Source of the DNA: Bdellovibrionales bacterium RIFCSPHIGHO2_01_FULL_40_29
GTDB taxonomy: Bacteria > Bdellovibrionota > Bdellovibrionia > Bdellovibrionales > Bdellovibrionaceae
DNA length: 64,000 nt
NCBI GenBank assembly: GCA_001771815.1
Contig: MEPU01000007.1
Location: forward strand, 62,001-126,000
Reading direction: 5' to 3'
Position 1 is the first letter of the stretch; each line of letters opens with the position of its first letter. The notes under the pieces are model-generated. The model saw nothing but the letters and a program-made list of their open reading frames with translations. It searched no databases and was not told the origin of the DNA. A program made the translations under genes and the position numbers. Of the stretch, positions 6,423-30,718 are shown in pieces.

Positions 6423-6528
6423 AAAGAAGAGATTAGAGTAAGATCTTACGTCCAGTAAATGGAGTCACTTGATTTCTGAACTTTATTAATTTGTCTGAAC
6501 AATCTAAACTAAAGCTTCGAGGTTTAAA

Positions 6529-8069: not shown

Positions 8070-9440
8070 ATGACTTTATTTCTTGGAGTGTATTTTTTAG
8101 GAGCTATGGCATTGGCTTCTGATGCTCAACGAGCTGGTGTAGAGCAAAAAAAAGTGATCAGTTCGCCTTCTCAGAGTAAGCTTCCGAAAATGGCAGACTA
8201 TGATGTCTATTTTGATTCATGTCAAAAATCGAAATCACTCAATTCAAAGGGGCAGATTTCGGCGATAAATCCAAATCATTTGGGCATTCCCGCGCTTGTT
8301 CAAAAAGATCAAAATGGAGTGCAAGCGTTTGATTTAGTGAATGCTGCTTACAAGCACACAGATAAAATGCTCAAACAGAATTTAGAAAAAACAAAAGAAT
8401 CTAAAAAATGTTTAAAGGCTGTGTTTAGTACTGAGTTTAAAAACTTAACGACATTTTGCCAGGATGTTTATGTTCAGATTATGCAAACATCGGCGTCGAT
8501 TTACCGAGCCCGTTTGCAACTGGCAATGGCTCTGCCATCATCATCAGAATTAACACCCTTGCAGTACAAAACATTAAATACGAATTTAAATGTACCTGTG
8601 AATACATTTAAAGTTGAAAAATGGATGCCCTTGTCAAAGGATGAAAAAAACAGGCTTTCACAAGAGTGGACCGAATTATTAAGCATCATTGAGAAAAAAG
8701 CATCAATGGATATGAAGCCAAGCAACAGTGGTTTTATGTCTGGTGCTGACGAGTACAAGAAAAATTTAATACAACAGGTTCGCCAAAAGGCTCTTCTGAA
8801 TTATCATATTGAAATGACTCAGTATCCACTGATTCAGTTTTTAAAATCAAGTGAGCCCACTGAAAAAGAATTTGAGTCAGCCTACGATAAAGCTATTCAA
8901 AGCATCGAAAAAGAAATCGATAACATCAGAGCACATCAAAACAAATTAGTTCTATCGGATAAAAAAATCATTACAGAGGATGATCTTTTTATTTTAAATT
9001 ATGCTTCGACAGAAGAGGTTCTGCGATCTAATGGACAGTTCTGCTCGGTGGCGCAATCTTTAGTTGAGTATCAAAAATTAAAAAACATGTATGTGTCCTA
9101 TGGATCGATGGTTTTATTTATCGGTGCAAGTTATTTGAAGGTGCCAGCCACAGCTCTATTGACAGCTGGAATAGGATTGTCAGGGCTTTCGCTTTATCAG
9201 TCACAAGTTGAATATAAAAAAGCATTGCAGGCGCATTTAGCCTCGCCTAGTTATGATGATCAAGTTTTTCGAAAATCAAAAGTCGATGAATCTAAAGAAG
9301 GCATTGTTTTAAATAGTGCTTTCTTGGGTTTGGCTGGAGCGGGTGGTCTTTCAAACTTCAGACAAGCGATTTTGATTTCAAAGCAGGTGGCTGGTCAGCA
9401 AGTGACTCAGTTTTTTAACCGCGCCAAGAGCGGGCTTTAG
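8070..9440 (+). CDS. Secreted hypothetical protein (456 aa)
   Basis: The start at 8070 was chosen because MTLFLGVYFLGAMALAS reads as a signal peptide; longer versions from 7938 put 44 unlikely residues in front. The mature protein is mostly helical and charged, with a Cys pair early (DSCQK and KKCLK). Two hydrophobic segments near the C-terminus (VLFIGASYLKVPATALLTAGIGLSG and VLNSAFLGLAGAGGL) could sit in a membrane. It is divergent from the coiled-coil gene before it. No known domain was recognised. Confidence 0.65.
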   Translation: MTLFLGVYFLGAMALASDAQRAGVEQKKVISSPSQSKLPKMADYDVYFDSCQKSKSLNSKGQISAINPNHLGIPALVQKDQNGVQAFDLVNAAYKHTDKMLKQNLEKTKESKKCLKAVFSTEFKNLTTFCQDVYVQIMQTSASIYRARLQLAMALPSSSELTPLQYKTLNTNLNVPVNTFKVEKWMPLSKDEKNRLSQEWTELLSIIEKKASMDMKPSNSGFMSGADEYKKNLIQQVRQKALLNYHIEMTQYPLIQFLKSSEPTEKEFESAYDKAIQSIEKEIDNIRAHQNKLVLSDKKIITEDDLFILNYASTEEVLRSNGQFCSVAQSLVEYQKLKNMYVSYGSMVLFIGASYLKVPATALLTAGIGLSGLSLYQSQVEYKKALQAHLASPSYDDQVFRKSKVDESKEGIVLNSAFLGLAGAGGLSNFRQAILISKQVAGQQVTQFFNRAKSGL

Positions 9441-9559
9441 TTTTTTTGCACCATTTTGAATCGTTTCATATTTGTTTAAAGATGAAATAGCTTCTTCGAG
9501 ACATATGAAAGTCTCATAAAATGTTTAAGTATTTTACATTTTTGTCGATAAGTCTATGT

Positions 9560-11713
9560 ATGCGCAACCACTTAAAGGTACTGACATGCTTAGTTCTTTT
9601 GACGGTCTTTATTGGGGCGTGCAGCAGTTCATCAGACTCTGAAGAAGCAGTCACTCTGCCTGCAGCACCTATAGAGGAGCCCATAGACAGTCCGGTGTCT
9701 TCTGCTCAAATTATTTTACTAGAGTCGCCAGACTATGACTTCGGTGATGTAAATGCTGGTTCTGTATCTGAAGCTGTATTAAATATTTCGAATACAGGTA
9801 CTTCAGCGGCCTCTCAGATATCTGCCTCGGTGAATCAACCATTTAAATTCAAAGGCGGATCATACCCAGGGTTGGGAGGAAACTGTACAAGCTCACTCGG
9901 TGTTGGTTCGACTTGTCAAGTATCTGTTGTTTTCAATCCGACAAGTGGTGATGTATCTCAGGAGCCTTTAACTATTAACTACTTAAGTGGAATCACAGAA
10001 TCCACAGCAACAATACAGCTTTTAGGAACAGGATTGATGACATCGCCAACTCATCTGTCTATTTCATCAATAAATGGTTTTACTATTAATAAATGCTATC
10101 CAATTCAAGTTTCCACAGTCACTGATCTTAATATAGAATCTGTAGTCACTTCTGGTACAACAATAAATTTACTTGTTAACAATGGAACGGGCCTATTTTA
10201 CGACAATGCTGATTGCTTAAATGTGATATCTTCAACAGTCATTAGTGCCGATCAAAAATCCACACTGGTTTATTTTAAAAGTTCCAGCGCTCCTCAAGAT
10301 TTGACTTTAATTGCAACAGCTATGGGATTAACCTCCGCACAAAAATCAAATTCGATTTCAAATATCACATCACAGTTAAGTTTAACTGGTGATTCTCAAA
10401 TAAAACTAGGAGTTTGTCGCCAAATTGATGTCGCGCGATTAGATGCCTCTGGCTATCAAGTTTATGATGATGCGCCACTGATTATTAATATTGCACATGA
10501 CAGTCAAGTGACTATTTTTAGTGATTCAAACTGCTTATCAACAATCAATGCAATAACAATCGAAACTTATAGTTCCTCCAAACGTTTTTATATTAAAAAT
10601 TCGACGTTAACAGGAAATGCGAATATTAGCGTTGCAGCAACGGATATAACAATATCAAGTACTCAGCTTAATATTAATTTTGTTGATCAGCTGAGTTGGT
10701 GGAATCCAAACTGGCCCTATCGATTTAAGCTCAATCTGAATAATTTAGATCAAAATGTCGCATTTAATAACCAAGCCGTCCTTATTAAATTAGATAGTTC
10801 TAAAATAAATTACTCCGCTATGAAATCTGATGGGACCGATCTTCGTATTTTGAACACTGATGATCTGACTGAATTAAGTTATGAAATTGAAAAATGGAAC
10901 CCGGTCGGCGAATCCTATGTTTGGGTTCGTATACCTCTCATCTCGGCAAGCAGTCAGTCTGATTTTATTTACCTCTATTTTGGAAATTTATCCGCAGGAG
11001 ATATTCAAAATAAAAATGACGTTTGGATTCAATACAATTCTGTATGGCATTTAAATGAAGATCTGAGTATGCCGGCGGCTCAAATACTGGACTCATCTTC
11101 TTCAAATCGACACGGAACTTTGCAAAATGCACCAACATCTTCTTATGGAGTTATAGGATCTGGAATCAATCTTAATGGAGATTCTGACTCGTTCGACGTT
11201 GGTAATTTAGCGCCTGTTTTGGGAACAACAACAACCATGAGCTTTTGGATGAAGACTTCACAGATCGGAAACAATACCAATTGGCTGGCCCCTGGAATAA
11301 CCGGCGTTGAACAAGCCGGTGGAGCCAATGATATATTTTTTGGTTGGATCAATGGTGGTGGCTATTTAGGGATGACTGTTGGCAACTCTGCAGGCGCGCT
11401 ATCAAATTTTATTGTCAATAACAATGCTTGGCGGCACATAACGGTCAGTCGTCATTCAACCACAGGCATTTGTTCGTTTTATGTAAATGGCGTTCTGAAT
11501 GGATCTTCAAATTGTGGCGCTGGAGATGTTACAACGGCATTTAGTCAAATTGGAATCATCGCGGACACGGGTGGAACACCCACTGAATTTGACGGGGAAC
11601 TTGATGAAATTAGAATTTTCAATACAGTCAAAACAGATGCGGAAATTAAAGCCGATTATAAATTTCAAAATCAAAGTCATATCATTTTTGGTGCTATTGA
11701 AATGATTCCTTGA
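9560..11713 (+). CDS. Surface lipoprotein with HYDIN-like, DUF2341 and LamG-like domains
   Basis: A 717-residue lipoprotein from the ATG at 9560, with signal MRNHLKVLTCLVLLTVFIGA and the lipidated Cys at residue 21. An ATG 13 codons upstream is also possible. The first domain has the choice-of-anchor/HYDIN-type immunoglobulin pattern (YDFGDVNAGS, then NISNTGTSAA and TCQVSVVFNPTS). A middle region of beta repeats follows. Then comes a DUF2341-type segment beginning WWNPNWPYRFKL and ending in FIYLYFGN. The C-terminal part is a concanavalin-A/LamG-like domain (SVWHLNEDL, AWRHITVSRH, GELDEIRIFN). Such proteins bind glycans or other surfaces. A role in surface attachment is inferred. Confidence 0.85.
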   Translation: MRNHLKVLTCLVLLTVFIGACSSSSDSEEAVTLPAAPIEEPIDSPVSSAQIILLESPDYDFGDVNAGSVSEAVLNISNTGTSAASQISASVNQPFKFKGGSYPGLGGNCTSSLGVGSTCQVSVVFNPTSGDVSQEPLTINYLSGITESTATIQLLGTGLMTSPTHLSISSINGFTINKCYPIQVSTVTDLNIESVVTSGTTINLLVNNGTGLFYDNADCLNVISSTVISADQKSTLVYFKSSSAPQDLTLIATAMGLTSAQKSNSISNITSQLSLTGDSQIKLGVCRQIDVARLDASGYQVYDDAPLIINIAHDSQVTIFSDSNCLSTINAITIETYSSSKRFYIKNSTLTGNANISVAATDITISSTQLNINFVDQLSWWNPNWPYRFKLNLNNLDQNVAFNNQAVLIKLDSSKINYSAMKSDGTDLRILNTDDLTELSYEIEKWNPVGESYVWVRIPLISASSQSDFIYLYFGNLSAGDIQNKNDVWIQYNSVWHLNEDLSMPAAQILDSSSSNRHGTLQNAPTSSYGVIGSGINLNGDSDSFDVGNLAPVLGTTTTMSFWMKTSQIGNNTNWLAPGITGVEQAGGANDIFFGWINGGGYLGMTVGNSAGALSNFIVNNNAWRHITVSRHSTTGICSFYVNGVLNGSSNCGAGDVTTAFSQIGIIADTGGTPTEFDGELDEIRIFNTVKTDAEIKADYKFQNQSHIIFGAIEMIP

Positions 11714-15722: not shown

Positions 15723-16504
15723 AGGATGCCACTTTGAAAAATGAATCCTTAGAGAAGTGGCAAGTCCATTTTTTGAGTTACATTTTAGGAATTGAGCAGA
15801 ACTTTCTGAATGAGGCGACTTCCATGAATGAGTTACCAGTTCGATCGTGTGCTGATATTTACAAGCGTGGTTACAAAGCCCGTTTGGTCGAGAGTTTAGG
15901 TGAAACCTATTCTGCAACATGGTGGGTTCTGGGGGATGATGACTATCTGAAGTTAGCGGAGGAGTTTGTAGCAAGCACGCCTTCACGAAGTTTTGATCTT
16001 TCTGATTACGGCAAAGAGTTCCCTGATTTTTTAAAATCGTCAGTGGTTGTCAGTGAAATTCCATTTATTTCCGAACTTTCTCGGTTTGAGTGGGTTTTTA
16101 AGATTTTATTTCATTCAGCAGATGTTCCAAACAAAGAGAATTTTTTAAGTCGTTTGAGCCAGAATCCAGAAATGAAGCTTCGACTTTTGCCGTCGACTAT
16201 TTTGTGGAGATCCAATTTTTCTATCTATGAAATCTGGAAGCAAAGGGATGGGGATATAGCAGCACTAAATGATATTGATTTGGAGTTGCCAGAATTTATT
16301 TTGTGTCGCAAATTAGAGGGCAAGGTCCGCATGAACTATTTAGAGGAGTCAGAATTGCGATTGCTACAACAGTTTGAGACCCCTCGGTCAATTGATGAGG
16401 CCGTTGCTAGCTATCAGAATCTGTACGGTGAATTGACACCAGAATCGGTACAAAGTCTATTTTCGCGAATCGGTGTGCTGGGTGTTCTCGAAGGAGCTAT
16501 TTGA
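15719..16504 (+). CDS. bufC: BufC-like partner protein (DUF2063)
   Basis: A 261-residue protein. The N-terminal region has the DUF2063 'putative DNA-binding' pattern: SCADIYKRGYKARLVESLGETYSATWWVLGDD and the LAEEFVASTPSRSFDLSDYG motif, followed by a domain with FEWVFKILFHSAD. In bufferin and methanobactin-type loci this partner contacts the precursor leader and supports BufB, rather than binding DNA. The ATG overlaps the bufB stop. The last codons overlap the TTG start of the sigma factor gene (TTGA), so the whole set is translationally coupled. Confidence 0.88.
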   Translation: MKDATLKNESLEKWQVHFLSYILGIEQNFLNEATSMNELPVRSCADIYKRGYKARLVESLGETYSATWWVLGDDDYLKLAEEFVASTPSRSFDLSDYGKEFPDFLKSSVVVSEIPFISELSRFEWVFKILFHSADVPNKENFLSRLSQNPEMKLRLLPSTILWRSNFSIYEIWKQRDGDIAALNDIDLELPEFILCRKLEGKVRMNYLEESELRLLQQFETPRSIDEAVASYQNLYGELTPESVQSLFSRIGVLGVLEGAI

Positions 16505-17085
16505 CTCAGCTATTAACGACATCTGAAATAATAGCTGCTTTTCGCGCCCAAAATTGGGTGGCTTTGGAAGGTCTCGTTCAGCAGTATACCGAGATGTTGC
16601 TAAAAGGGGCTTTGAGTCTTGGATTTCGAGATCAACAAGCTGACGACCTGGTTCAGTCGGTGTGGATGACTTTTTTCGAAGTTGTTTCAACCTTTGAAGG
16701 TCGCTCGCAGGTGAAGACTTTTTTATATGGTATTTTGATCAATAAGTCTCGCGAGCTGAGGCGCGAGACTAAAAAAAATGACAACCACGACCCAATTGAA
16801 GAGGTGATGGAGGAGCGTTTTGATCAGCGTGGCCATTGGACGAGGCCACCCATTTCGCCAGATCGTTTTATTGAATCCCTTCAAAATCTGAAAGTCATTC
16901 AAGATTGTATCGAACATTTACCAGTGAATCAACGCGCTGCTTTTTGTTTCCGAGAAGTTGATGATCTTGAAATGCCAGAAATCTGTAAGATCTTGGACGT
17001 GACCAACACTAACTTAGGTGTCCTTCTGTATCGTGCGAAGAATCGTCTGAGGGAATGCATTGAAAGAAAAGTGGGTCAAAACTAA
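16501..17085 (+). CDS. ECF-type RNA polymerase sigma factor
   Basis: A 194-residue group 4 sigma factor. Region 2 is residues 20-95 (FRDQQADDLVQSVWMTFFE and SQVKTFLYGILINKSRE). Region 4 is residues 130-185 (LPVNQRAAFCFREVDDLEMPEIC and TNLGVLLYRAKNRLRE). The start is TTG at 16501, four bases after AAGGAG; no ATG fits. It overlaps the bufC stop and is followed at once by a zinc-finger anti-sigma gene. It probably activates this operon in response to metal stress, the usual arrangement in bufferin loci. The inducing metal is not evident. Confidence 0.9.
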   Translation: MTQLLTTSEIIAAFRAQNWVALEGLVQQYTEMLLKGALSLGFRDQQADDLVQSVWMTFFEVVSTFEGRSQVKTFLYGILINKSRELRRETKKNDNHDPIEEVMEERFDQRGHWTRPPISPDRFIESLQNLKVIQDCIEHLPVNQRAAFCFREVDDLEMPEICKILDVTNTNLGVLLYRAKNRLRECIERKVGQN

Positions 17086-17333
17086 TGTTATCCTGCAAAG
17101 AGACTGTTCTCATCTTATCATCAGACAAAGAGCTCTCGTTTCGACAGAGAATTGAACTTCGTTTCCACTTATTGATGTGTAAGCACTGCGCGTCTTATTC
17201 AAAGCAAATTGGCGCCATCGTGGGTGAATTAAAACGGATGTACCGAGAGACCACGAAAATAGATGTCAGTCGAGTTGCCTATCTCGAAAATCAGATTATC
17301 GAAAAAATGAAGAAATTTAAGAGTAAAGATTAG
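17085..17333 (+). CDS. Short zinc-finger anti-sigma factor
   Basis: An 82-residue protein. It has the ZAS-type zinc-binding pattern: Cys4, then His28-x3-Cys32-x2-Cys35 in RFHLLMCKHC. Unlike many anti-sigma factors it has no transmembrane segment, so it should be a soluble, cytoplasmic regulator. It would hold the ECF factor until zinc is lost or the cysteines react with copper or oxidants. It starts at the last base of the sigma gene stop (TAATG overlap). The remainder is a basic helical tail. Confidence 0.85.
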   Translation: MLSCKETVLILSSDKELSFRQRIELRFHLLMCKHCASYSKQIGAIVGELKRMYRETTKIDVSRVAYLENQIIEKMKKFKSKD

Positions 17334-18028: not shown

Positions 18029-18167
18029 AATTCTCTATAGTAAACACATTGAACTACTGTCGCCAATTTTCGGCGTTTTTTCAAACAGTCTCGGTTTGAT
18101 ACAATCAAGTAAACTATATGGCATTTGATAGGTGTATGGCTTGCTAATGCTCATTTTAGAGGGATTA

Positions 18168-21100
18168 ATGAAAATACTTATTTTGGCTGTATTCAGTTTA
18201 TTTATGTCGAATGTTGTTTTTGCTGCAGTCAAATGTGAAAAACTATTTCAAATAAATGAAAAAAAAATCAATGAAGTTGTAAAAATAAGCGCAAAAGAAA
18301 CAAAACAATTTTATGAGATACTATTAAAAGACGCAAAAGATAACACACCTGACGCTTTTTTTAAAATATACCAAGATTTAATATTATCTGGATTTTTTAA
18401 GAAAAATGTTTTTTCTTTAGAGAATAAGTTTGAAATTTACAGAAGGTTTATTCATAAGAATTTTGAAAATTTTGATACTGCAATTAAATTGTATGAAAAT
18501 TTCACATTTGATAATCCACAATATGAAAGAATTAAGAATGATGAATTTCACAGGGCAGTATCAAATAAGATAAGATTCACAGGGTATAATACAGGTGCAC
18601 CACCATCTAAAGAGCTTAAAGAGTTTCAGCAAAGTCTTGTTTCTTTTTTCAGAAGACAAGGTCTTAAAAATCAGGCTCACTTTGAAGATTTTGAAAGCAG
18701 GCACTATATAGTCAAGAATATTCTAGACCATGTGCATTTCGGTTTTTTTTCGCCAATTGTAGCTGAGTTCTCAACAATTGAATTAAAAAACTTTCTTTAT
18801 ATTGTTAGAAAAGTTTCAACCGAATCAGAGTTTAGAAACATTATCAACAGTAAGGATATTCTTAAAAGATTAGAAGATAGTGATTTTTATGAAATAGATA
18901 AAGAGTATTTTTTTAAGTTAAAATATTATTCCGATATTCGTCAATTAGGCATCTTAAAAAATAAAGCAAAAAAAAGTGGCATTGATGATCAGGTTATTCA
19001 ATTTATTGAAGTTCACTTTGATAAAAAAGATCAGCTTGTTATATTTTCTACATTACCACTATTAAAGACAAAAGTGCTTCAGCAGCATTTTGTTAAAAAT
19101 TACCAACTTACCAGTAAACTCCTGTCAATAGATTATTTGGATCTTCATATTAGAAATGGATTTTATGTTTTCACTGAATTCACTTCAAATCGTTCTGAAA
19201 ATTATCAAGAAAGTTTAGATAGTTTATTTAAAATTTCTCAAAAAACAGATGAATCTAGTATTTTTGCAAATAAAATCTATGAGCATTTTTATAATCAAAA
19301 GATTGAGGGTCCATTTAATCTCAAAGAAGAAGTTTTGCGAGTTAAATCTGAAGCATTAAAATTTGATTTTAATGTATCGAAATTAAAAAACATGTCTTAT
19401 GAGGATCGACTAAAAATTATAAGTGAGCTCGTCGATTTAGAAAATAAAGGAATTGTGATCCCGGTTTCTGCTTCTGAAGCTGTTATTGTCGAAATGATTC
19501 CGTATCTTAAGGCTCTTGAACCAAAATTAGTTAAAATGATTCATTTGGAATCATTGAATAGCTTTTGGGAAATATTTTCAAGTTTTAATTGGAAAATACA
19601 GGCTCATGTTTCGTCTAATTTTAAGAAATTAAACAATATATTTGAGATGTCTCAGCAAGAAATTATTGTAAATTGGCTTTTGAATACTATTGCTGGTCGG
19701 CAAAATTTATTTCAAAAATCAGAAAATAGTATAGAGTTTCTAAAAAAACTTTATGCGGTTAATATCAATGCAAATGATTTTCAATCTATGTCTGAAATGA
19801 CTAAAAATTATTTTCTAAACCTTATTAAAAGATTATCAGATAATAGCTCTAAGCTTGAAATTTTTAAAAGAATCGATGCAGAGCTTTACTCTAAAGAAAA
19901 TATTAAGAAAACGTTGGAACTTATTCAGTTTTATTCTTTGATTGAGCTAGAATCAGATACTAAAGTCAGGATCAAATCGCAATTGGTAAAAACTAGAATT
20001 AGTCTGCACAACAGAGATGCTGAATTAGAAAAATATAGAGCGCAACTTTTGAAAGAGTTTAAAGAAATTATTTCAGACGAAAACTTTAAAATCTCAGAAA
20101 AACATATGTCAGAGCTAATTGATAAATGGGGTGATTTAGAAGTTCTATTTGTTCTTAGTAGTAGGTTGGAAAACAAAGAAGTTGATGTCTTACGAGAAAT
20201 TATTAAACAAGAACTCAGTGGTAAGTTTCATGAGTACAAGTTTTCTGGAAGGACTGCAGAAGAGAAATCCCTTTCAAAAAAGCAGATGAGTATGCTGACT
20301 CCTGCTGATCAAATAGTCTGGGAGACCCCTATAGCTAAAGTTGCTTTTCCAAAAGCAAATCAAGCTGAAATACAGCCTTTAAGAGAAAAAATTGAAATTC
20401 TTAAGAACATTTTTTTGCATGAAGTAGAACGAAGTGGGTATAAAGTTGACAATAAAATTACACAAATTAGAAATCAATGGATCAGTAGAATTATTTCGTA
20501 TAAAGGAAATCCGAATGAATTTTTTAAAGTACAGAATGTGCCTGAAATTATAGATCAGGTTAAAATACTATTTTATGCTGTAGATGAATTGATGAATTCG
20601 AAGAACGGTCAATTTGAGTATAAGCAATTGCTTTCAATTGTGAGATGGAATTTACATAATGGAGTTAAATTTCAAAACGAAGAAGTTAATGCGGCATTGT
20701 TAACTCAATTAAAAGATATTCATGAATCTATTCAAAAATTAAATAGCGATTCGAACAGATTAATTTTATCTGTTAAATCCAGTGATCCCAAGTTGTTACT
20801 TACAATTGGTGATTGCGTTAATGCAGCATCTTGTCAAAATTTTAGAGAGGGAACTGTTATTCGGACATTACCGGGCTATGTGATTGATGCCAATGTTCAA
20901 GCCTTACTAAGTTTTGAATTAAACAGCTCTACTTTTGATTCCGTTCAGGATTTTTCTAAGGTTAAGAATTGGGTCAAAAATTCAGGAGTTAAATTAAAAG
21001 TTAAGTTTGATGGAAATCTAAAAGTTGTCACATTTACATTTGAAAATGAAGTCATTACAAGCCGCCAATTGGATAAAGGATATTTAAGAAATATGATTAA

Positions 21101-21365
21101 ACTTGGAAAAATGGATAAATCAAAAAAAGCTGGAATCGCTATTGAATCCGGTTATTCTCAGACTCATCCAGACATTGAATTTATGATAAGCCAGCATATT
21201 GAAATTGTTAAAGAAATGATTGAAAAAATTTCTGGTTCTACAAAAGGCCAAATGACTGTCTATAAATCTAAAAATCCAGCAGGTCATTATTCCGACTTAG
21301 GATCGGGAATAGAAACTGATAATTACACTCTTCAGTTTAATCTTGATCATGTGAGAATGAAGTAG
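18168..21365 (+). CDS. Very large exported protein of unknown function
   Basis: A 1065-residue protein. The start at 18168 follows GAGGGATTA and gives signal peptide MKILILAVFSLFMSNVVFA, followed at once by the motif CEKLF (Cys23). The long body is almost all helical and charged (Lys, Glu, Asn, Ile), looks repeat-like without clear repeats, and uses AT-rich codons more strongly than its neighbours. The last 200 residues look like a separate, more globular domain, with GDCVNAASCQNF, LPGYVIDANVQ and FTFENEVITSRQ. It precedes the AAA+/M41 gene by 138 bases in the same direction, so the two may work together. No enzyme motif was identified. Confidence 0.75.
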   Translation: MKILILAVFSLFMSNVVFAAVKCEKLFQINEKKINEVVKISAKETKQFYEILLKDAKDNTPDAFFKIYQDLILSGFFKKNVFSLENKFEIYRRFIHKNFENFDTAIKLYENFTFDNPQYERIKNDEFHRAVSNKIRFTGYNTGAPPSKELKEFQQSLVSFFRRQGLKNQAHFEDFESRHYIVKNILDHVHFGFFSPIVAEFSTIELKNFLYIVRKVSTESEFRNIINSKDILKRLEDSDFYEIDKEYFFKLKYYSDIRQLGILKNKAKKSGIDDQVIQFIEVHFDKKDQLVIFSTLPLLKTKVLQQHFVKNYQLTSKLLSIDYLDLHIRNGFYVFTEFTSNRSENYQESLDSLFKISQKTDESSIFANKIYEHFYNQKIEGPFNLKEEVLRVKSEALKFDFNVSKLKNMSYEDRLKIISELVDLENKGIVIPVSASEAVIVEMIPYLKALEPKLVKMIHLESLNSFWEIFSSFNWKIQAHVSSNFKKLNNIFEMSQQEIIVNWLLNTIAGRQNLFQKSENSIEFLKKLYAVNINANDFQSMSEMTKNYFLNLIKRLSDNSSKLEIFKRIDAELYSKENIKKTLELIQFYSLIELESDTKVRIKSQLVKTRISLHNRDAELEKYRAQLLKEFKEIISDENFKISEKHMSELIDKWGDLEVLFVLSSRLENKEVDVLREIIKQELSGKFHEYKFSGRTAEEKSLSKKQMSMLTPADQIVWETPIAKVAFPKANQAEIQPLREKIEILKNIFLHEVERSGYKVDNKITQIRNQWISRIISYKGNPNEFFKVQNVPEIIDQVKILFYAVDELMNSKNGQFEYKQLLSIVRWNLHNGVKFQNEEVNAALLTQLKDIHESIQKLNSDSNRLILSVKSSDPKLLLTIGDCVNAASCQNFREGTVIRTLPGYVIDANVQALLSFELNSSTFDSVQDFSKVKNWVKNSGVKLKVKFDGNLKVVTFTFENEVITSRQLDKGYLRNMIKLGKMDKSKKAGIAIESGYSQTHPDIEFMISQHIEIVKEMIEKISGSTKGQMTVYKSKNPAGHYSDLGSGIETDNYTLQFNLDHVRMK

Positions 21366-21503
21366 AGGCGTGTAAAGCAAATTGACAGCTGTTTAGCGTT
21401 AATGGTTTTTTCGCACAAATGACTTCATTTGAAATCTCCAAACGAAATATAAAGTATTTGACTGGATTTAGTTTTGCTTTTCTTAGTTTCGAAGGTGGTT
21501 CCA

Positions 21504-24500
21504 ATGAGAAGTTCAATAGTTATTATTTTAATAGTCCAGCTCATGACATGCGTTTCATTGGCGCAAAAATTTAAACAGCAACTGTCTCAATCTGAATCAG
21601 GGGCTGCTATCCTGAAGTTGATGCCAAAGTTATTAACCGATCAAGCTAAAATTGAACGGGCTAAGGGAATATTAAATTTGATTACAGATAGAGAGGCCGA
21701 AGCCAATCAAGTCATTGATACTTTGGTGCGAATTAAAGGCACAAATCCTGTTCTATTAGGTGAAGCCGGAGTTGGGAAAACGGCAGTTGTTGAAAAAGTA
21801 TCGCAAATGATTGCTCTGGGAAGTGTCCCTCGAGCTAAGGTTTTCTCGAAGGAAATTTTAAATGCAGAAATTATTCAATTAGAAGCATCAAGTGTAAAAC
21901 AGTTGGGTAAAAGACCAGAGGATGCTGCGTTGGCATTAGTAAATCATTTAAAACAAATAGAAAAAGACACTGGAGTGCCAGTTATTTTATTTATTGATGA
22001 GATACACAGTCTTGATTCAGATATGTGGGATGTTTTAAAAACAGCAATGGATGCTAAAGATGGTATCCGGCTTATCGGTGCGACAACTGAGCGTGAGTTT
22101 CAGTTGAAGTTTGGAAATGAAGAAGCCATGCTACGACGATTTGCTCCAGTTGGAGTTGCCGAATTTACTGAAGAACGGTCCATTGAAATTTTATCAGGCT
22201 CATGGAAATCACAAATTGAAAAAAGATATGATGTTGAAATTTCAGATGAATTGATTAAGCAAGTGGTTAAGAATTATAAAAAAATTCTTCCTGATGTCGC
22301 ACGTCCTGATGGGCCGATAAAAGTGCTGGTGGATTTGGCAGTTCAGGCGCACCGACATACAGTTAAAAAAATTGCGACTGCTGATTTTTTTAAATTTGTA
22401 AAAGATCGAACCAAAATTCCAGCAAATCCACAAGATTTAAATGAAATCAACTCGTTCATGAAAGAAAAGGAAAGTATTCTTAAGTCGAGAATACTTGGAC
22501 AAGACCGTATGGTTGAATCGACACTTTCAGTTTATCGCAATTTACTCTTGTCGGGTGGTGATAAACCTCAAGTGATCATGTTAATGGGATCAACAGGTGT
22601 TGGTAAAACATATTTAGCTGAAAGCGTAGCGCAGGCATTATTTGGTGGTGAGCATCGATTCTTTAAAATTGATGGATCAGCCTATGCAACCAAAGTAAAT
22701 GGCTCTTCGCCATTATCCAGTTTGCTGGGGCCTAAGCCGGGTACAGTTGGATATAAAGAAACCACTGGTAGCCTTATTGAATGGATGAGTAATCCTGGTA
22801 AAGGGCGTTTCGGAGGTGTCTTGCTGATTGACGAGATTGAAAAGATGCATCCGGATACGCTTAAAGAACTTGCGATGAATTTATTTGATAAAGGAGAAGT
22901 TTCTGCGGGAAATGGGAAAAAAATAAAAGTTCCGAACCTTTTAATTATGGGAACGACAAATCATGCAGTTAATCAAGTTCTTCCTGAAGGTTATCAAAAC
23001 TGGTCTGAAGAGGAGCTTAGAAAAAGAATTGCTGACTTTGATCAAAAAGATTTGAAAAATCTATTCATTCAGCCCACTGAAGCCGATAGTGATTTTAAGT
23101 GGCCACGCGAAATCGTCAATCGAATCGGCACGTATATTTTTGCGAATCCAATTACAAATCAAGAGGCTTTTCGAATTTCTAAACTTGAATTTGCAAAAAG
23201 AATTAAAATTTATAGTGAAAGAAATAACCTCCAATTCAAAATCGAAGACGACGTTATTCAATTCTTGACCGATCAAGTTTTTAACCGAGAAGATGGTGTT
23301 CGCGATTTATCAAGATCCATTGAATCCTTTTTTAACATAGTCACAAAAAGAATAACGTCAGGTGTGATTCAAATTAAAATGGATAGACAAGGATCAAAAA
23401 ATAATTGGAGCTTTTTAGTTTCTAACGGGAAAGAACAAATTAAAATTACAGATCATCCATTTAAAAAAGCTCAAAATGCTGCATCTATAGAAGAATTAAA
23501 AGATTTAAAAACTTTAACGAATCGTGTGAATAATGAAATTTATGGTCAAGACGAAATGATTCAAAAAGTAATCAATGTTGTTCGAAACTGGAGAGTCTTG
23601 CCTTCAGGAAAGCCATTAACCATTATTGCTGTGGGATCAACGGGAACAGGTAAAACTGAAACGGCCAAAGTACTAGCAAAAGAACTTTATGGCTCAGAAG
23701 CAAAGGCTCCAATCGTTGCAATGGGTGATGTTGGACGAATTGAAAACTTGAATAAAATTTTTGGTTCAGATCCAGGTTTTGTAAAATCGAATCAAATGGG
23801 GACTTTTGAAAAAGCATTACTTCAAGTTATGAGTGGCGGATTTTTAGTTCTTGATGAAATTTCAAATGCTGGTGGTACTGATAAAAATCAGCGTCAAGAA
23901 ATTATGTTTAAATTTTATAATATCATTGAAGAAGGATTTTGGATTTCTCCGAATACGGGGCGTCGTTATGATTTATCAAAAGTTATTTTTTGGATGACGG
24001 GTAATGATATGCAAGATTACTACTATGGTGTTTCCAGTGATGATATGCGTGAGTCCATTTACAATCGAATCAAGGACGAAAATAATGTCAGATCTGAACT
24101 TCGTAAGCGTGGATTTCCCGAAGCTATTTTGGGACGTGCCCAATTGGTTGTTCATACAAAGCCCCTTTTAACTCAGCACACTCTTGGAATTTCTCAGCGG
24201 GTTGTGAATAAATCTGTTGAAAATATTAGAAAAAATTTCCCTGGAGCTGAAGTTATAATTTCTGAAGCAACAATTAAAACTGCCAATGAAGTTTTCTTTA
24301 ACCATGATCAAGGTGGACGTTCAATACGCAATAAATTCGAAAGCGAAATTCAAGGTCTTATCTCGGAATCAATTCTGTTGACAGACACGACACCGGAGAA
24401 TGCTCAGGATCGTGTATTTGAAGTGAAGATCGTAGATGGGCGTTCTAAAAAACATTATGCCATCAAAGGGTTGCAACAATATTTTCTTGTAGAAGTAGTT

Positions 24501-25247
24501 GTTAAAAATAGAAAAGGTGAAACTTTACAAAAAGTTTCCAACGATCTTGCTAGTAAAGTTGATTTAAGCAAACCGGATGCTTCTGAATTGGTTAAGGTCT
24601 CCTTTCACGAGATAGGTCATGCAATGCTTAACGATGAAAATGTTTCTGGTCAAAGACTTCGTTTTGTAACAATAAAACCAGGTTCATCTGGTGACGGTTC
24701 AAGGTATTTAGGCTACGCCGCTTACGATGATGTTAAAAAGAAGAATACAGGTCTTACTGAACTTCGCAGAAATTTAATGAGAATTGTTGCGGGACGCGTT
24801 GCTCAAGAAGTTGCAGGATTTCAACCAGATCGTGGCTGGCAGTCTGATTATAATAAAATGGTCAAACTGATCTCAAGTTTTTACGTCACTTCGGGACTTG
24901 ATCCAAAGCTTTGGGGAACAAGTTTTGACAAAGAAAATCGTCTTGTCGGAACAAGTGCTCAGCAAGAGTATTTTCATCAACTCATTATTGCTGAAATTAC
25001 GAAAGCACAAGATCAAACCCGTGAATACTTAACAGCTCATATTGGACTCTTAAGATTTTTAACTGCGCAGCTAGTAAAAAACCAAAGTCTTACCGGAGAA
25101 CAATTCCGAATCTACTTAGAAGGTTTTAAATCGGGTATGAATAGCAGACAAATTCAGAAGGGTAAGGTCGTTGTCATTGATAAAATTGTTCAAAAAAATG
25201 GAAGTTCTAAAAATTCAGTAATGAGTTGTAAAAAACTTTTTAACTAG
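21504..25247 (+). CDS. Exported triple AAA+ / FtsH-like M41 metalloprotease fusion
   Basis: A 1247-residue protein from the ATG at 21504 (GAAGGTGG upstream), with signal-like N-terminus MRSSIVIILIVQLMTCVSLA. Three AAA+ modules follow. Module 1 is ClpB-D1-like: Walker A GEAGVGKT at 86-93, Walker B FIDEIH near 165. Module 2 is ClpB-D2-like: GSTGVGKT at 362-369, LIDEIE near 443. Module 3 has GSTGTGKT at 711-718 and LDEI near 784. The C-terminal region is M41 peptidase-like: HEIGH at 1035-1039, then GRVAQEVAGF and a likely third zinc ligand Asp1115 in GWQSDYNKMV, matching the FtsH GA-x-ND region. It ends CKKLFN. Clp unfoldases normally recruit separate ClpP; here unfoldase and protease share one chain, apparently exported. 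Domain calls are firm; location and substrate are inferred. Confidence 0.9.
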   Translation: MRSSIVIILIVQLMTCVSLAQKFKQQLSQSESGAAILKLMPKLLTDQAKIERAKGILNLITDREAEANQVIDTLVRIKGTNPVLLGEAGVGKTAVVEKVSQMIALGSVPRAKVFSKEILNAEIIQLEASSVKQLGKRPEDAALALVNHLKQIEKDTGVPVILFIDEIHSLDSDMWDVLKTAMDAKDGIRLIGATTEREFQLKFGNEEAMLRRFAPVGVAEFTEERSIEILSGSWKSQIEKRYDVEISDELIKQVVKNYKKILPDVARPDGPIKVLVDLAVQAHRHTVKKIATADFFKFVKDRTKIPANPQDLNEINSFMKEKESILKSRILGQDRMVESTLSVYRNLLLSGGDKPQVIMLMGSTGVGKTYLAESVAQALFGGEHRFFKIDGSAYATKVNGSSPLSSLLGPKPGTVGYKETTGSLIEWMSNPGKGRFGGVLLIDEIEKMHPDTLKELAMNLFDKGEVSAGNGKKIKVPNLLIMGTTNHAVNQVLPEGYQNWSEEELRKRIADFDQKDLKNLFIQPTEADSDFKWPREIVNRIGTYIFANPITNQEAFRISKLEFAKRIKIYSERNNLQFKIEDDVIQFLTDQVFNREDGVRDLSRSIESFFNIVTKRITSGVIQIKMDRQGSKNNWSFLVSNGKEQIKITDHPFKKAQNAASIEELKDLKTLTNRVNNEIYGQDEMIQKVINVVRNWRVLPSGKPLTIIAVGSTGTGKTETAKVLAKELYGSEAKAPIVAMGDVGRIENLNKIFGSDPGFVKSNQMGTFEKALLQVMSGGFLVLDEISNAGGTDKNQRQEIMFKFYNIIEEGFWISPNTGRRYDLSKVIFWMTGNDMQDYYYGVSSDDMRESIYNRIKDENNVRSELRKRGFPEAILGRAQLVVHTKPLLTQHTLGISQRVVNKSVENIRKNFPGAEVIISEATIKTANEVFFNHDQGGRSIRNKFESEIQGLISESILLTDTTPENAQDRVFEVKIVDGRSKKHYAIKGLQQYFLVEVVVKNRKGETLQKVSNDLASKVDLSKPDASELVKVSFHEIGHAMLNDENVSGQRLRFVTIKPGSSGDGSRYLGYAAYDDVKKKNTGLTELRRNLMRIVAGRVAQEVAGFQPDRGWQSDYNKMVKLISSFYVTSGLDPKLWGTSFDKENRLVGTSAQQEYFHQLIIAEITKAQDQTREYLTAHIGLLRFLTAQLVKNQSLTGEQFRIYLEGFKSGMNSRQIQKGKVVVIDKIVQKNGSSKNSVMSCKKLFN

Positions 25248-25322: not shown

Positions 25323-26522
25323 GTGAAGCTTTTTACGGCCTTCTGTATCATTATGGGACTCGCTTTTTCGAGCAATTCTTCTGCCGAAGAACTGCTGACT
25401 TATGAGCACTTTCTTAAGATGGTTTTCGAGAAAAATCTTGATCTCAAAATAGAGTCAGCCAAGCTGGACGCGGCAGAATCCCAGACCAAAAAACTAAATA
25501 TTCCACCACCGATGATTGGCTACATGAGAATGACTGATGAAAGCGGAAGCGCGAATGGATTTGAGGTTTCTCAAATGATTCCATTTCCGTCAAAAGTTTC
25601 AGCGGGTCGAGCTTCAAGAAAATTTGAAGCAGACTCGCAAAAAGAAGTGATTGTGGGCATGGAATCTGAAATTCATGCAAAAGCGCGATTGATTTATTTT
25701 TCTATTTGGCAAGGACAGGCCAAGATTGATGCATTAAAGGAAAAAAAAGATGTCATCAAATCTCATCTTCAGCTGGCACGGGCCGGGGCGAGGTCGGATA
25801 GTTTCTTGAAAATTCACTTGCTGAAGACTGAGTCGGATTTGGATCTTTTGGAAAATGATATGATGTCAGCCGAGCAAGATCTGCTCGAGAGGCAAATCCG
25901 AGCCGCCAAGTTTGCAAATATTGATCCCATCGATTTTCATCCAAAGGCGGAGGACCCCGGTCTTATTCAGCTTCCGACTCAAAAAAGCCTTTCAGCTCCT
26001 GCACAAATTGAATCCACAAAATTAATTTTAGAAAGTTTTAAAGCCCGCGAACAAGAAGAGCGCTCGTCTTGGTTTCCAGACTTGTATCTTCGCTATCAAG
26101 AGATTGGTAAAACAGAAATGATGCCTAAAATTTCTGAAATCATGATTGGAGTGAGTCTTCCATTCTTGTTTCCATGGGATGCTTCGGCCAGTGCTGACCA
26201 AGCAACGGCGCAGAGGCTTCAAGCAGAGTATATTCTTGAACAAGAAAAACGTCGCGTTGATTCAGAAAAAGAAACTTTAGTGGCTCGAGCTACTTTTTTA
26301 AGAAAGCAACTCGATAATTTGAATCACAATTTGCTTCCGCGGGCCGAGAGACGTATGAAACTTGTTCGCAATTTAGCGCCGCGAGATTTAGAATCACTTC
26401 AGGATCATCGTGAGGCAATGGAGGCTTTTCCTGATCTGAAAATCAAAGTTCTTGATGTTCGTTTTCAATATGAGGAAGCTATTTCAGAACTTCTTAAATT
26501 TTCAAGGAGTCGCTCACAATGA
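25323..26522 (+). CDS. TolC-family outer membrane efflux protein (CusC/CzcC-like)
   Basis: A 399-residue outer membrane factor. It uses a GTG start at 25323 with AAGGG close upstream and has signal peptide MKLFTAFCIIMGLAFSSNSSA. Two TolC-type helical repeats are visible: FLKMVFEKNLDLKIESAKLDAAE with IPPPMIGYMRM, and later LILESFKAREQEERSSWFPDLYLRYQE with a membrane strand IGVSLPFLFPWD. It would form the exit duct of the efflux pump encoded downstream. The next gene overlaps its stop (ATGA). The metal is probably copper, silver or another divalent ion, judged by the neighbours. Confidence 0.87.
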   Translation: MKLFTAFCIIMGLAFSSNSSAEELLTYEHFLKMVFEKNLDLKIESAKLDAAESQTKKLNIPPPMIGYMRMTDESGSANGFEVSQMIPFPSKVSAGRASRKFEADSQKEVIVGMESEIHAKARLIYFSIWQGQAKIDALKEKKDVIKSHLQLARAGARSDSFLKIHLLKTESDLDLLENDMMSAEQDLLERQIRAAKFANIDPIDFHPKAEDPGLIQLPTQKSLSAPAQIESTKLILESFKAREQEERSSWFPDLYLRYQEIGKTEMMPKISEIMIGVSLPFLFPWDASASADQATAQRLQAEYILEQEKRRVDSEKETLVARATFLRKQLDNLNHNLLPRAERRMKLVRNLAPRDLESLQDHREAMEAFPDLKIKVLDVRFQYEEAISELLKFSRSRSQ

Positions 26523-27454
26523 AAAAAATAGGAATCATTATTATTGTCGTCGCAACAATTTTTGGATTTTGGATGACACAAAAGTATTCTCCAAAAATGA
26601 TCTCTTCAAAAGATGAATCCACAGCAGAACTCAGTGAGCAAACTTATTGGACGTGTCCGATGCATCCTCAAATTCATCAGGATCATGCGGGTGAGTGTCC
26701 GATTTGTCATATGAAACTTGTGCAAGTCAAAGTCGATCCTCAAGATTCAGATCCGACGGCATCCGAAAAAAAAGGCTCAGTTCAGATTAATTCTGAGCAA
26801 ATGACTTTGCTGGGCGTGCAACGCGCCGAAGTGGAAAAGATGACGCTTAAAATGAAAATACCTATTTCTGGACGTTTTATTTCATCAACGTCTGTGGCCT
26901 TTCAAATTTATGAAAGTGATCTTAAGTATGTAAAACGGGGACTTGTGTTTAAAGGTGTGAGTCACTTTTCACCAGACAATGAAATTTCAGGAATTATTAC
27001 GGTGGTTGATTCGATCGTAGATCCAACAAGTCGAACCATTCGTGTGGTGGGTTCCATAAAGAATGGTTTTTCAAAAATACCATCTGAGACTAGTTTCCGT
27101 GGAGATATTATTGTTGAATTGAAAGATAGAATTTCTATTCCCGAAAGTTCGGTATTGCACACAGGAGCGGGTGATTTTGTCTATATCTTTGTGAAAGACA
27201 ATGAACTGATTCCCAGAAAAGTTTCTTTAGGAATCAAGACTGAAGGTTTTTATGATGTCTTAGCAGGAGTTCAACCTGGTGAAATAATGAGTTCTGGTCC
27301 TAATTTTCTTATAGACTCTGAAAGTAAGATCAGAGCGATTTCTATGCCCACAACGGATGAAATGGGTGGGCCAGAGAAATCCTCAGTGCCAAGTTGTCCT
27401 AAAGGTCAGCATTGGGATATACCAATGTCCATGTGCATGCCTGGCAAGGGGTAG
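26519..27454 (+). CDS. CusB-like periplasmic adaptor with heavy-metal-binding domain, shortened
   Basis: A 311-residue membrane fusion protein with one N-terminal membrane anchor (residues 4-22). A heavy-metal-binding domain is at about 42-70 (YWTCPMHPQIHQDHAGECPICHMKL), with the CPMHP and CPICHM ligands intact. The chain then goes from the first adaptor strand (EVEKMTLKMKIPISGRF) almost directly into the beta-barrel (SSTSVAFQIYESDLKYVKRG). The lipoyl/barrel-sandwich part and the alpha-hairpin usual for CusB appear to be missing. Beta-barrel (VDPTSRTIRVVG) and membrane-proximal domains (IPESSVLHTG) are present. A Cys/Met-rich tail (SCPKGQHWDIPMSMCMPG) may bind metal. Reading frame and overlap are intact, so this is not a recent frameshift. 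Confidence 0.87.
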   Translation: MKKIGIIIIVVATIFGFWMTQKYSPKMISSKDESTAELSEQTYWTCPMHPQIHQDHAGECPICHMKLVQVKVDPQDSDPTASEKKGSVQINSEQMTLLGVQRAEVEKMTLKMKIPISGRFISSTSVAFQIYESDLKYVKRGLVFKGVSHFSPDNEISGIITVVDSIVDPTSRTIRVVGSIKNGFSKIPSETSFRGDIIVELKDRISIPESSVLHTGAGDFVYIFVKDNELIPRKVSLGIKTEGFYDVLAGVQPGEIMSSGPNFLIDSESKIRAISMPTTDEMGGPEKSSVPSCPKGQHWDIPMSMCMPGKG

Positions 27455-27457
27455 CTC

Positions 27458-30400
27458 ATGATTCGTAAGATTATTTCTTTTTCTGCACATAATCGTGTTC
27501 TTGTTCTGATCGTGGTTTTTCTCATTTCACTTGTGGGTATTTATTCTGTGAAGCATATTCCACTTGATGCCATTCCAGATCTTTCAGATACGCAAGTTAT
27601 TATATACTCGCGCTGGGATCGATCCCCCGATATTGTCGAGAATCAAGTGACGTATCCGATTGTCTCGGCAATGTTGGGTGCTCCTCGAGTAAAATCTGTT
27701 CGCGGATTTTCAGACTATGGCTTTTCATATGTTTATATTATTTTTGAAGATGGTGTGGATCTTTACTGGGCCCGAAGTCGTGTTCTTGAAAGTATAAATC
27801 GAATTTCATCGCAAATTCCGGATGGTGTAAAAACAGAGATTGGTCCTGACGCGACGAGTGTGGGTTGGGTTTACCAGTATGTTTTAAGGGATGAGTCCGG
27901 ACGCTTCAATGCTGCCGATTTGCGTTCCATGCAGGATTGGCTTGTTCGCTTTCAGCTTCAGTCTGTTCAGGGTGTTGCTGAAGTTGCTGCGGTGGGTGGT
28001 TTTGTTAAACAGTATCAGATAAAAGTTGATCCCACCAAGCTGGCGTTATTTCAATTGACGATGAAGCAAGTCATGGATGCGGTCAGGCTATCCAATCAAG
28101 AAAGCGGAGGGCGTACCATTGAATTTTCTGGAACTGAGGCCATGGTCAGAAGCCGTGGTCTTGTGGAGCGAGTCGAAGATATTGAAAATGCTGTTATCCT
28201 GGATAATCCTCGAAGTCGTGCTCCGATTTTAGTGAAGCAAGTGGCGACAGTGTCTGTAGGACCTGAAATGCGACGAGGGATCACAGATTTTAATGGGCTC
28301 GGAGACACCGTTGGTGGGATCGTGGTGATGCGGCAAGGAGAAAACGTTCCGGCTGTCATTGACCGCATTAAAGAAAGAATAGTGTCAATTCAAAAAGCGC
28401 TTCCAGAGGGGGTAAAGATAATTCCGGTCTATGACCGCTCTGATCTTATTGCGCGTGCCATTGATACTTTAAAGGGAACTTTAATTGAAGAGCTGGTGAT
28501 TGTGAGTCTTATTGTTCTTTTGTTTCTTTGGCATATTCCTTCGGCTTTGGTGCCGATTGTGACGATTCCAATTTCAGTTCTTTTAGCATTCATACCGCTT
28601 TATTTTATGGGGCTTTCGTCGAATATTATGTCGCTATCAGGGATTGCGATTTCAATTGGTGTTTTGGTTGATGGTGCCATTGTCGAAGTCGAGAATGCTT
28701 ATCGTAAAATTTATCTTTGGCAAGAGGGCGGTCGCAAAGAAGATTTTTTTAAAGTTCGTTTAAGTGCTCTTATGGAAGTCGGGCCATCAGTTTTTTTCTC
28801 TTTACTTGTGATTGCGGTAGCTTTTTTGCCAATATTCACGCTTGTTGATCAAGAGGGGCGACTTTTTAAACCACTGGCGTACTCAAAAAACTTTGCCATG
28901 GCGATAGCAGCGCTTTTGGCAATTACTCTTGATCCTGCGATGAGAATGCTCTTTGCGCGAAGTGAGCCCTTTCAAACTAAAAGTCCTTGGCTTAATCGGA
29001 TTGGAAATGCGACTCTGGTTGGGACTTATTACTCCGAACATAAGCATCCGATCAGTCGCAGACTATTTCAAATTTATGAGCCCGTGTTAGATTGGGTTCT
29101 AAAATACAAGAAGGCAACGCTTGCTTTGGCATTTGTGGGATTACTTTCTGTTATTCCTGGTTTTTTATTTCTTGGTTCGGAATTTATGCCTACTTTACAT
29201 GAGGGCAGTCTTCTTTATATGCCAACTGCTCTTCCGGGTGTGTCCGTGACAGAAGCGCAACGTTTGCTTTCGGTGCAAGATAAAATTTTAAAATCATTTC
29301 CGGAAGTCGATACGGTATTTGGAAAAGCTGGACGTGCAGAAACATCTACGGATACGGCACCCTTAAGCATGTTTGAGACAACAATTGTTTTAAAACCTAA
29401 AGCAGAATGGCGTCAAACAGAGCGTTGGTACTCTTTTTTTCCGGCGTTTATGAAAGGACCCTTTCAGCGGATTTGGCCTGAAACAATCAGCGAAGATCAG
29501 CTTATTGATGAGATGAATGAGAAACTCAGCTTTCTTGGAATGCCGAACATCTGGACGATGCCGATTAAGAATAGAATTGATATGCTTTCCACGGGCATTA
29601 GAAGTCCCGTTGGAGTTAAAATTTTTGGTCCGGATTTAAAAATAATTCAATCCATCGGACAAGATATTGAGCGTGAAATTAAAAAATTGGACGGAACGCG
29701 ATCAGTTATTGCTGAACGCATTGCCGGAGGATACTTTCTTGATATTGATTTTGATCGTGAGAAATTAAAAATTTATGGTCTTTCGCTGAAAGAGGCTCAA
29801 GATCAAGCGATGATTTCTGTGGGCGGTGAAAATGTCTCGCAGATTTTAGCCGGTCGAGAGCGATATCCCATTCAAGTTCGCATGGCCCCAGCTTTTCGAC
29901 AGGATGAGAGCGCTATCAAACGATTACTGATGACCACATCCACGGGGGCTCAGATTCCATTGAGTGAAATAGCTCAAGTTCATTTTCGAAATGGACCTTC
30001 GATGATTCGTGATGAGAATGCGCAGCTTGTTGGTTATGTGTATGTGGATATGGATTTATCAAAAGTCGATATCGGAACCTATGTTGAGCGCGCCAAAAAA
30101 CTAGTCGAAGAAAAAATTTCAATACCAAGTGGTTATGTCATTGCGTGGAGTGGCCAGTTTGAAAATATGGAGCGTATCAAAGAACGTCTTAAGTTTGTGA
30201 TTCCAATCACACTGTTGCTGATTGTATTTCTTCTTTTTTTCAATACAAGATCGTGGGTGAAAACGGCAATTGTACTTTTGGCTGTTCCTTTCTCGTTGAT
30301 TGGGGCTGTGTGGCTATTGGTCTTATTGGGATATAATCTTTCGATTGCAACCTGGGTTGGGATGATAGCTCTTCTTGGACTTGATGCCGAGACGGGTGTT

Positions 30401-30718
30401 TTTATGTTGATGTACTTGGATCTTGCATTTGATGATCGTGTTCGTCGGGGTGAGATGCAAACACCTTCGGATCTGAAAGCCGCTGTTGTTGAAGGAGCTG
30501 TTCATCGTGTGCGACCAAAGTTGATGACAGTGGCTGCACTTTTTATGGGACTTCTTCCGATCATGTGGTCAACTGGAGCCGGAGCTGATGTTATGAAAAG
30601 AATTGCAGCTCCAATGATTGGTGGCCTAGCCACATCATTTCTTTTGGAGTTGTTGATCTATCCAGTTGTTTTCTACTTGTGGAAATCAAGAATCCTTTTT
30701 AAAGAAATAAAAAATTAA
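27458..30718 (+). CDS. CusA/CzcA-family heavy-metal RND efflux pump
   Basis: A 1086-residue RND inner membrane pump, the normal length. It starts MIRKIISFSAHNRVLVLIVV, has the family motif HIPLDAIPDLSDTQVIIYSRW, and shows twelve membrane segments in two halves separated by two large periplasmic loops. The TM4-like segment has SLSGIAISIGVLVDGAIVEVEN, as in heavy-metal exporters. The periplasmic cleft carries GMPNIWTMPIKNRIDMLSTGIRSPVGVKI, as in CusA. It exports monovalent copper/silver or divalent metals with proton entry. It follows the adaptor gene by three bases and closes the CBA operon. Confidence 0.95.
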   Translation: MIRKIISFSAHNRVLVLIVVFLISLVGIYSVKHIPLDAIPDLSDTQVIIYSRWDRSPDIVENQVTYPIVSAMLGAPRVKSVRGFSDYGFSYVYIIFEDGVDLYWARSRVLESINRISSQIPDGVKTEIGPDATSVGWVYQYVLRDESGRFNAADLRSMQDWLVRFQLQSVQGVAEVAAVGGFVKQYQIKVDPTKLALFQLTMKQVMDAVRLSNQESGGRTIEFSGTEAMVRSRGLVERVEDIENAVILDNPRSRAPILVKQVATVSVGPEMRRGITDFNGLGDTVGGIVVMRQGENVPAVIDRIKERIVSIQKALPEGVKIIPVYDRSDLIARAIDTLKGTLIEELVIVSLIVLLFLWHIPSALVPIVTIPISVLLAFIPLYFMGLSSNIMSLSGIAISIGVLVDGAIVEVENAYRKIYLWQEGGRKEDFFKVRLSALMEVGPSVFFSLLVIAVAFLPIFTLVDQEGRLFKPLAYSKNFAMAIAALLAITLDPAMRMLFARSEPFQTKSPWLNRIGNATLVGTYYSEHKHPISRRLFQIYEPVLDWVLKYKKATLALAFVGLLSVIPGFLFLGSEFMPTLHEGSLLYMPTALPGVSVTEAQRLLSVQDKILKSFPEVDTVFGKAGRAETSTDTAPLSMFETTIVLKPKAEWRQTERWYSFFPAFMKGPFQRIWPETISEDQLIDEMNEKLSFLGMPNIWTMPIKNRIDMLSTGIRSPVGVKIFGPDLKIIQSIGQDIEREIKKLDGTRSVIAERIAGGYFLDIDFDREKLKIYGLSLKEAQDQAMISVGGENVSQILAGRERYPIQVRMAPAFRQDESAIKRLLMTTSTGAQIPLSEIAQVHFRNGPSMIRDENAQLVGYVYVDMDLSKVDIGTYVERAKKLVEEKISIPSGYVIAWSGQFENMERIKERLKFVIPITLLLIVFLLFFNTRSWVKTAIVLLAVPFSLIGAVWLLVLLGYNLSIATWVGMIALLGLDAETGVFMLMYLDLAFDDRVRRGEMQTPSDLKAAVVEGAVHRVRPKLMTVAALFMGLLPIMWSTGAGADVMKRIAAPMIGGLATSFLLELLIYPVVFYLWKSRILFKEIKN

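Follow-up and report, generated by a model that had tools for sequence, protein, structure and literature searches.

A gene at positions 21504-25247 on the forward strand of a 64,000-nucleotide stretch of DNA from Bdellovibrionales bacterium RIFCSPHIGHO2_01_FULL_40_29 (contig MEPU01000007.1, positions 62,001 to 126,000; the whole stretch is termed the window) encodes what is probably an exported, single-chain ATP-dependent metalloprotease, held in place by a cysteine tag and carrying out ATP-driven proteolysis outside the cytoplasm. The proposal draws on sequence comparisons and structural models. We know of no bacterial ATP-driven protease that works outside the cytoplasm.

Domain architecture

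The open reading frame begins with an ATG at 21504, immediately preceded by a Shine-Dalgarno-like AAGGTGG (21492-21498), and its stop codon ends at 25247 to give a product of 1247 residues. Profiles and models indicate that this chain almost certainly comprises three HSP100-type AAA+ modules, D1, D2 and D3, in series, followed by an FtsH-type M41 peptidase. D1 (residues ~52-280, nucleotides 21657-22343) is HSP100 D1-like, with a Walker A motif at residues 86-93 (GEAGVGKT), FIDEIH and LRRF, and is assigned from profile and model. D2 (~300-612, 22401-23339) is HSP100 D2-like, with Walker A at 362-369 (GSTGVGKT) and LIDEIEK, and matches Pfam AAA_2 and ClpB_D2-small. D3 (~660-985, 23481-24458) is a second D2-like module, with Walker A at residue 711 (GSTGTGKT), recognized by profile, VIA-align and invariant residues. 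The M41 domain (~1023-1202, 24570-25109) contains the zinc-binding HEIGH motif (1035-1039, 24606-24620) and, in the FtsH arrangement, Asp1115 (24846-24848), the presumed third zinc ligand, which aligns with the SND motif of FtsH. A C-terminal tail (1203-1247, 25110-25244) completes the protein.

Family profiles match ClpC D1 for D1 (7e-35), ClpC/ClpB D2 for D3 (1.5e-41) and solved FtsH structures for the M41 domain (1.9e-34, from 32 members). On the 1247-residue protein Pfam identifies AAA_2/AAA modules and ClpB_D2-small at 554-608, together with a Torsin match, and NCBIfam finds ClpV-, ClpA- and ClpB-like stretches besides the FtsH-type C-terminus (FtsH_fam, residues 1028-1200, 7e-13). Pfam Peptidase_M41 is marginal when the whole protein is scanned (residues 1031-1202, 29.1 bits against a cut-off of 29.9), scores 32.9 bits for the domain scanned alone, and matches all 32 family members (E<0.01). 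Full-length equivalog models score well below their cut-offs: 48 bits against 600 for NCBIfam FtsH, where the best stretch is the M41 part, 312 against 885 for ClpV, 278 against 993 for ClpA and 242 against 1232 for ClpB. The protein carries the marks of the HSP100/Clp AAA+ superfamily, namely D1- and D2-type modules, Walker A and B motifs, arginine finger and sensor 2, and those of peptidase family M41, namely the profile score of the domain alone, HExxH with a downstream aspartate, and the M41 fold.

An AlphaFold model of residues 24-1223 has a mean predicted local distance difference test (pLDDT) score of 85 and a predicted template modelling (pTM) score of 0.49, so that single domains are reliable and their relative placement is not. 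VIA-align superposes D1-D2 on ClpC (Z 28.7) and residues 638-981, spanning D3, on the C-terminal AAA+ domain of ClpB (Z 28.4); Foldseek agrees on both. HSP101 and Skd3 are also among the VIA-align matches. The M41 domain is absent from the whole-chain VIA-align list because the AAA+ domains fill it, and was therefore folded and searched separately. That model has a pLDDT of 87 and its best Foldseek match is FtsH (PDB code 3kds, 3.7e-9). Its residues 254-283 fall below 50, and the last 30 residues of the tail are predicted to be disordered. An earlier note, made from the sequence alone, had described three Walker A/B sets (D1, D2 and a second D2-like) joined to an M41 protease at the C-terminus; profiles and models agree with it on each module.

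Conserved residues and the working core

Relatives of the same architecture were found, and the conservation of HEIGH and Asp1115, which the earlier note had proposed as a check, is borne out. Across the M41 part of 32 sequences His1035, Glu1036, His1039, Gly1070, Asp1115 and Cys1242 are invariant. In D3 of the main family branch (A, defined below) the invariant residues are Lys717 (Walker A), Asp784-Glu785 (Walker B), Asn834 (sensor 1), Arg878 (arginine finger) and Arg939 (sensor 2). ATP hydrolysis therefore appears to be under selection, which suggests that the protein consumes ATP at its place of action.

Many relatives lack D1 or have a degenerate copy of it, and in most the Walker B aspartate of D2 is replaced by asparagine; in the window protein both are intact. 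Since D1 and D2 decay while D3 and M41 are kept, the working core would consist of D3 and M41, D2 and D1 being additions to it. One fragmentary branch A relative (L020:765-3317) lacks HExxH and keeps the C-terminal cysteine (ACAELL). Possibly this protease is inactive, or the sequence is in error; if the relative is real, the cysteine tag is kept independently of proteolysis.

Family, distribution and phylogeny

Two profiles define the family: A3, built on D3-M41 of the main branch (A), and A9, for a second, more divergent branch (B) of ~1340 residues with the Walker A sequence LSSTGKT. Among 369 genomes of the phylum A3 picks out 36 and A9 picks out 26; together the branches occur in 56 genomes, five of which carry both (G107 is counted solely under the second branch in this total). 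Long relatives are present in ~25 of 141 genomes of the order, and two of 14 genomes in the window's own genus carry one of the branches. A3, the profile used outside the phylum, found nothing at 1e-60 in 299 genomes of one other phylum and 198 of another. An empty result by itself proves nothing; as a control, in eight outside genomes the profile matched Clp-sized and FtsH-sized proteins separately. The family has ~60 members, which appear to be spread patchily over a single phylum whose bacteria are largely predators.

In a tree of M41 domains 28 FtsH sequences from many phyla, that of the same genome included, lie on one side and 32 family members on the other (SH-like approximate likelihood ratio test, 99). 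This is a quick tree with long branches, and its internal branching order is uncertain. The M41 domains of both branches lie together on the family side of the separating branch and do not group with FtsH, of which the host genome retains a separate, canonical copy.

An origin in phages or plasmids was considered and rejected: matches there span about half of the query and none reaches 80%, and the annotated ones among those listed are of Clp/ClpV type. No relatives of the protease were found in viral contigs. One scan of genome contigs gave no match, and another gave, among the matches listed, FtsH-region matches only, so that it does not bear on whether named organisms carry this architecture. 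In open-licence papers we found neither this domain architecture nor the cysteine tag considered below described. The family is a new combination of known domains in an unusual, predicted compartment, with a tag not found described.

Evidence for export

The N-terminus resembles a signal peptide: residues 1-21 (21504-21566) read MRSSIVIILIVQLMTCVSLAQ, and cleavage, judged by eye, would follow MRSSIVIILIVQLMTCVSLA and precede a Gln. A strong hydrophobic stretch begins 33 of 37 full-length members, as opposed to three of 540 random internal segments that exceed the same hydropathy threshold, and 29 of the 33 have an AxA-like site. In 26 full-length members the N-side of the segment is the more positive.

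A second observation is independent of the signal rule. Cysteine has a frequency of 0.00059 in the mature core of the family, while the same genome has 0.0118 in its non-exported and 0.0075 in its signal-bearing proteins. The mature chain is depleted ~20-fold, and such near-absence would be expected from selection in an oxidising compartment. Taken with the cysteine tag that other exported proteins share, these data, though indirect, make export from the cytoplasm very probable, and the earlier note's suggestion of export is upheld at that level.

A C-terminal cysteine tag

The window protein has a single cysteine outside the signal peptide, Cys1242, in the sequence Cys-Lys-Lys-Leu-Phe that ends at Phe1246 (25227-25241) and forms an invariant column in alignments. 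All 46 members examined have a cysteine within the last 28 residues (in 43 of them no more than 15 from the end), most often in a C-x-x-[LIF]-[LF] motif; the count excludes L165, whose reading frame runs off the contig, and two N-terminal fragments. A cysteine occurs in the last 30 residues of only two of 52 FtsH sequences.

The motif is not confined to the protease. In a census covering ~1.19 of the 2.93 Mb of the genome, strict CxxLF follows directly on the signal in seven of 361 signal-like proteins, occurs mid-protein in none of the same 361 and is absent from all 587 proteins without a signal. Four of the seven are encoded in the window. One is the upstream gene (18132-21365, forward strand), whose 1077-residue product is predicted to be exported, has CEKLF (18234-18248) just after the signal peptide and gives no Pfam match. 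The others are three adjacent genes on the reverse strand between 59167 and 62841 (59167-60591, 60588-61775 and 61930-62841), which encode predicted exported proteins, again with no Pfam match, where the cysteine of the post-signal CxxLF is the only or almost the only one. In other genomes the large predicted exported gene beside the protease is often tagged too. In L036 NRCADLLSGKL forms the end of the protease, and NRCADLLSG follows the signal of its neighbour; a pair in L049 bears the matching tags SCKSLF and SCKSLFR; and in L165 a neighbour of this kind is fused to the protease, the junction having no cysteine.

The simplest reading of these sequences is that the tag serves as a common docking or attachment signal of exported proteins. 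It is somewhat unlikely that, instead of acting as a docking peptide, it directs a modification or a covalent attachment (a lipid, a thioester, or a disulfide bond with a shared surface protein). A lone cysteine in otherwise cysteine-poor mature chains, placed at the N-terminus of some exported proteins and the C-terminus of others, is in keeping with such chemistry; no enzyme or receptor was found, and the idea refines rather than opposes the proposal made here. The tag, the second branch and the degeneracy of D1 and of the D2 Walker B motif in many relatives had all escaped the earlier note.

Proposed mechanism and alternatives

We suggest that Sec would export the chain and that the signal peptide would then be cleaved. 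By comparison with HSP100 and FtsH biology six chains may assemble into stacked AAA+ rings, which would draw a substrate through the pore, unfolding it, and pass it directly into the M41 chamber, so that ClpP would not be needed. Inspection of D2 and D3 by eye showed no ClpP-binding loop of the IGF/IGL type, as would suit a chain that carries its own peptidase. The enzyme would be attached through its cysteine tag, either to the envelope or to a partner that the other exported CxxLF proteins also use. Most speculatively, by analogy with HSP101, ATP might come from a neighbouring, prey or host cell, and the enzyme would digest folded proteins outside its own cytoplasm.

Where could the ATP originate? 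Predators, and bacteria that live on other cells, could encounter ATP externally, and the analogy makes supply by another cell a tentative suggestion. The fuller idea, that a bacterial unfoldase-protease runs on the ATP of prey, host or lysing neighbour while tethered through a CxxLF motif that marks a previously undescribed exported class, is offered more tentatively still.

Several points weigh against an exported ATP-driven protease. The periplasm does not normally contain ATP. The signal call is based on hydropathy and a site rule, with controls, rather than on a dedicated predictor, and the charge across the hydrophobic region of the window protein is neutral (+1/+1; a relative of 60% identity has +4/+1). 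Pore-loop aromatics are only partly kept, the window protein having GFVK in D3 and GTVG in D2. Genus g4, of the same family and probably Bdellovibrio, a periplasmic predator, has neither branch in any of its 24 genomes. From this absence and the patchy distribution it follows that the protease does not belong to a core machinery of predation. The absence weakens any direct link with predation in the periplasm and argues against a general predatory role. The domains of the earlier note are confirmed and its suggestion of export is supported, while the use of ATP inside prey, which it had also raised, is a conjecture.

Is ATP used at all? The protein could be exported and have no ATP-driven activity, acting as a chaperone-like scaffold or as an ATP-independent periplasmic M41 peptidase. 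The lack of periplasmic ATP, the degenerate or missing D1 and the altered D2 Walker B of many relatives would all suit this, and yet the invariance of the D3 ATPase residues throughout branch A would be unexpected if ATP were never used; we consider it quite unlikely. Is the protein exported? An uncleaved N-terminal anchor could hold it at the membrane with the AAA+ and M41 domains facing the cytoplasm, as in FtsH, which likewise has an N-terminal membrane part. ATP would then be at hand, and some relatives, the window protein included, have no clear positive-inside bias. Against this, the members have a single segment where FtsH has two transmembrane segments with a domain between them; its mostly more positive N-side and the AxA-like sites (29 of 37) predict an N-in/C-out orientation; and neither the cysteine depletion nor a cysteine motif common to other signal-bearing proteins fits a cytoplasmic location. 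This alternative is improbable. That a duplicated housekeeping FtsH or Clp has undergone chance fusion and has no special role, as Clp- and FtsH-like building blocks and a patchy distribution might suggest, is very improbable and largely refuted by the conserved architecture of two deep branches in 56 of 369 genomes, with an M41 clade apart from FtsH and a canonical FtsH still present. An exported, ATP-using protease remains our preferred explanation.

Neighbouring genes

The upstream gene was tried as an obligate partner of the protease and rejected: elsewhere in the order its homologues occur in just two genomes, neither of which carries the same branch of the protease, and it does not recur as a conserved neighbour across the family. 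Upstream of the gene pair, at 16501-17333, lie genes for an extracytoplasmic function-type sigma factor (sigma-70 r2 and r4) and a small protein that by eye is zinc-finger anti-sigma-like. Directly downstream of the protease, 25323-30718 holds a heavy-metal resistance-nodulation-division efflux operon (OEP, an HMBD-containing membrane-fusion protein and an AcrB/CusA-type pump), probably unrelated.

Elsewhere the protease has neighbours with FGE-sulfatase domains (L035, L036 and L042) or an ATP-grasp domain (L052). Large predicted exported neighbours or fusion partners (L036:11459-14629, L042:13323-16631, the C-terminal half of L165 and L043:6175-8955) share a conserved region, mostly with an FGE-sulfatase domain in addition. 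The conserved regions of L036, L042 and L165 gave no match to PDB profiles, and a likeness by eye to nucleotidyltransferases or ADP-ribosyltransferases is not claimed. The L052 protein (4398-7595, reverse strand) bears a signal and a circularly permuted ATP-grasp, and is apparently another exported ATP-using enzyme; its gene sits between a branch B gene (520-4347) and a branch A gene (7689-11663).

Comparison with known systems and implications

The protein resembles FtsH, AFG3L2 and YME1 in having an M41 peptidase, with HExxH and a downstream aspartate, fused behind an AAA+ motor. FtsH has one classic AAA module and two transmembrane segments, and works on the cytoplasmic side. Here, in contrast, there are up to three HSP100-type motors, an exported-looking chain and a separate M41 lineage. 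Its D1- and D2-type modules match ClpB, ClpC, ClpA and Hsp104 in motifs and folds. Unlike those unfoldases it lacks the HSP100 N-terminal domain, leaves no room for the ClpB coiled coil and has a further D2-like module; its peptidase, fused into the chain, stands in for ClpP.

Torsins, in the lumen of the endoplasmic reticulum, and Skd3/CLPB, in the mitochondrial intermembrane space, are Clp-type AAA+ proteins outside the cytosol; they have no peptidase and occupy eukaryotic organelles with their own ATP supply. HSP101 of the Plasmodium PTEX translocon is an HSP100 AAA+ protein whose site of action, the vacuole membrane, lies outside the cytoplasm of the parasite (PMC7355975). It feeds a membrane pore rather than a protease, and serves as a precedent for the compartment without being a special relative. 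The precedents named for HSP100 proteins outside the cytosol (HSP101, Skd3 and torsins) are all eukaryotic.

The accepted view is that AAA+ proteases occur only in compartments that contain ATP, and that M41 is found only with a single classic AAA module, in proteins of the FtsH type. A conserved exported HSP100-M41 family, if true, breaks both rules. It would also represent a compact natural unfoldase-protease with no need for ClpP, and the shared cysteine tag would point to a new attachment or sorting pathway. Such a family, if real, makes it testable whether a bacterium can drive ATP machines with the ATP of another cell.

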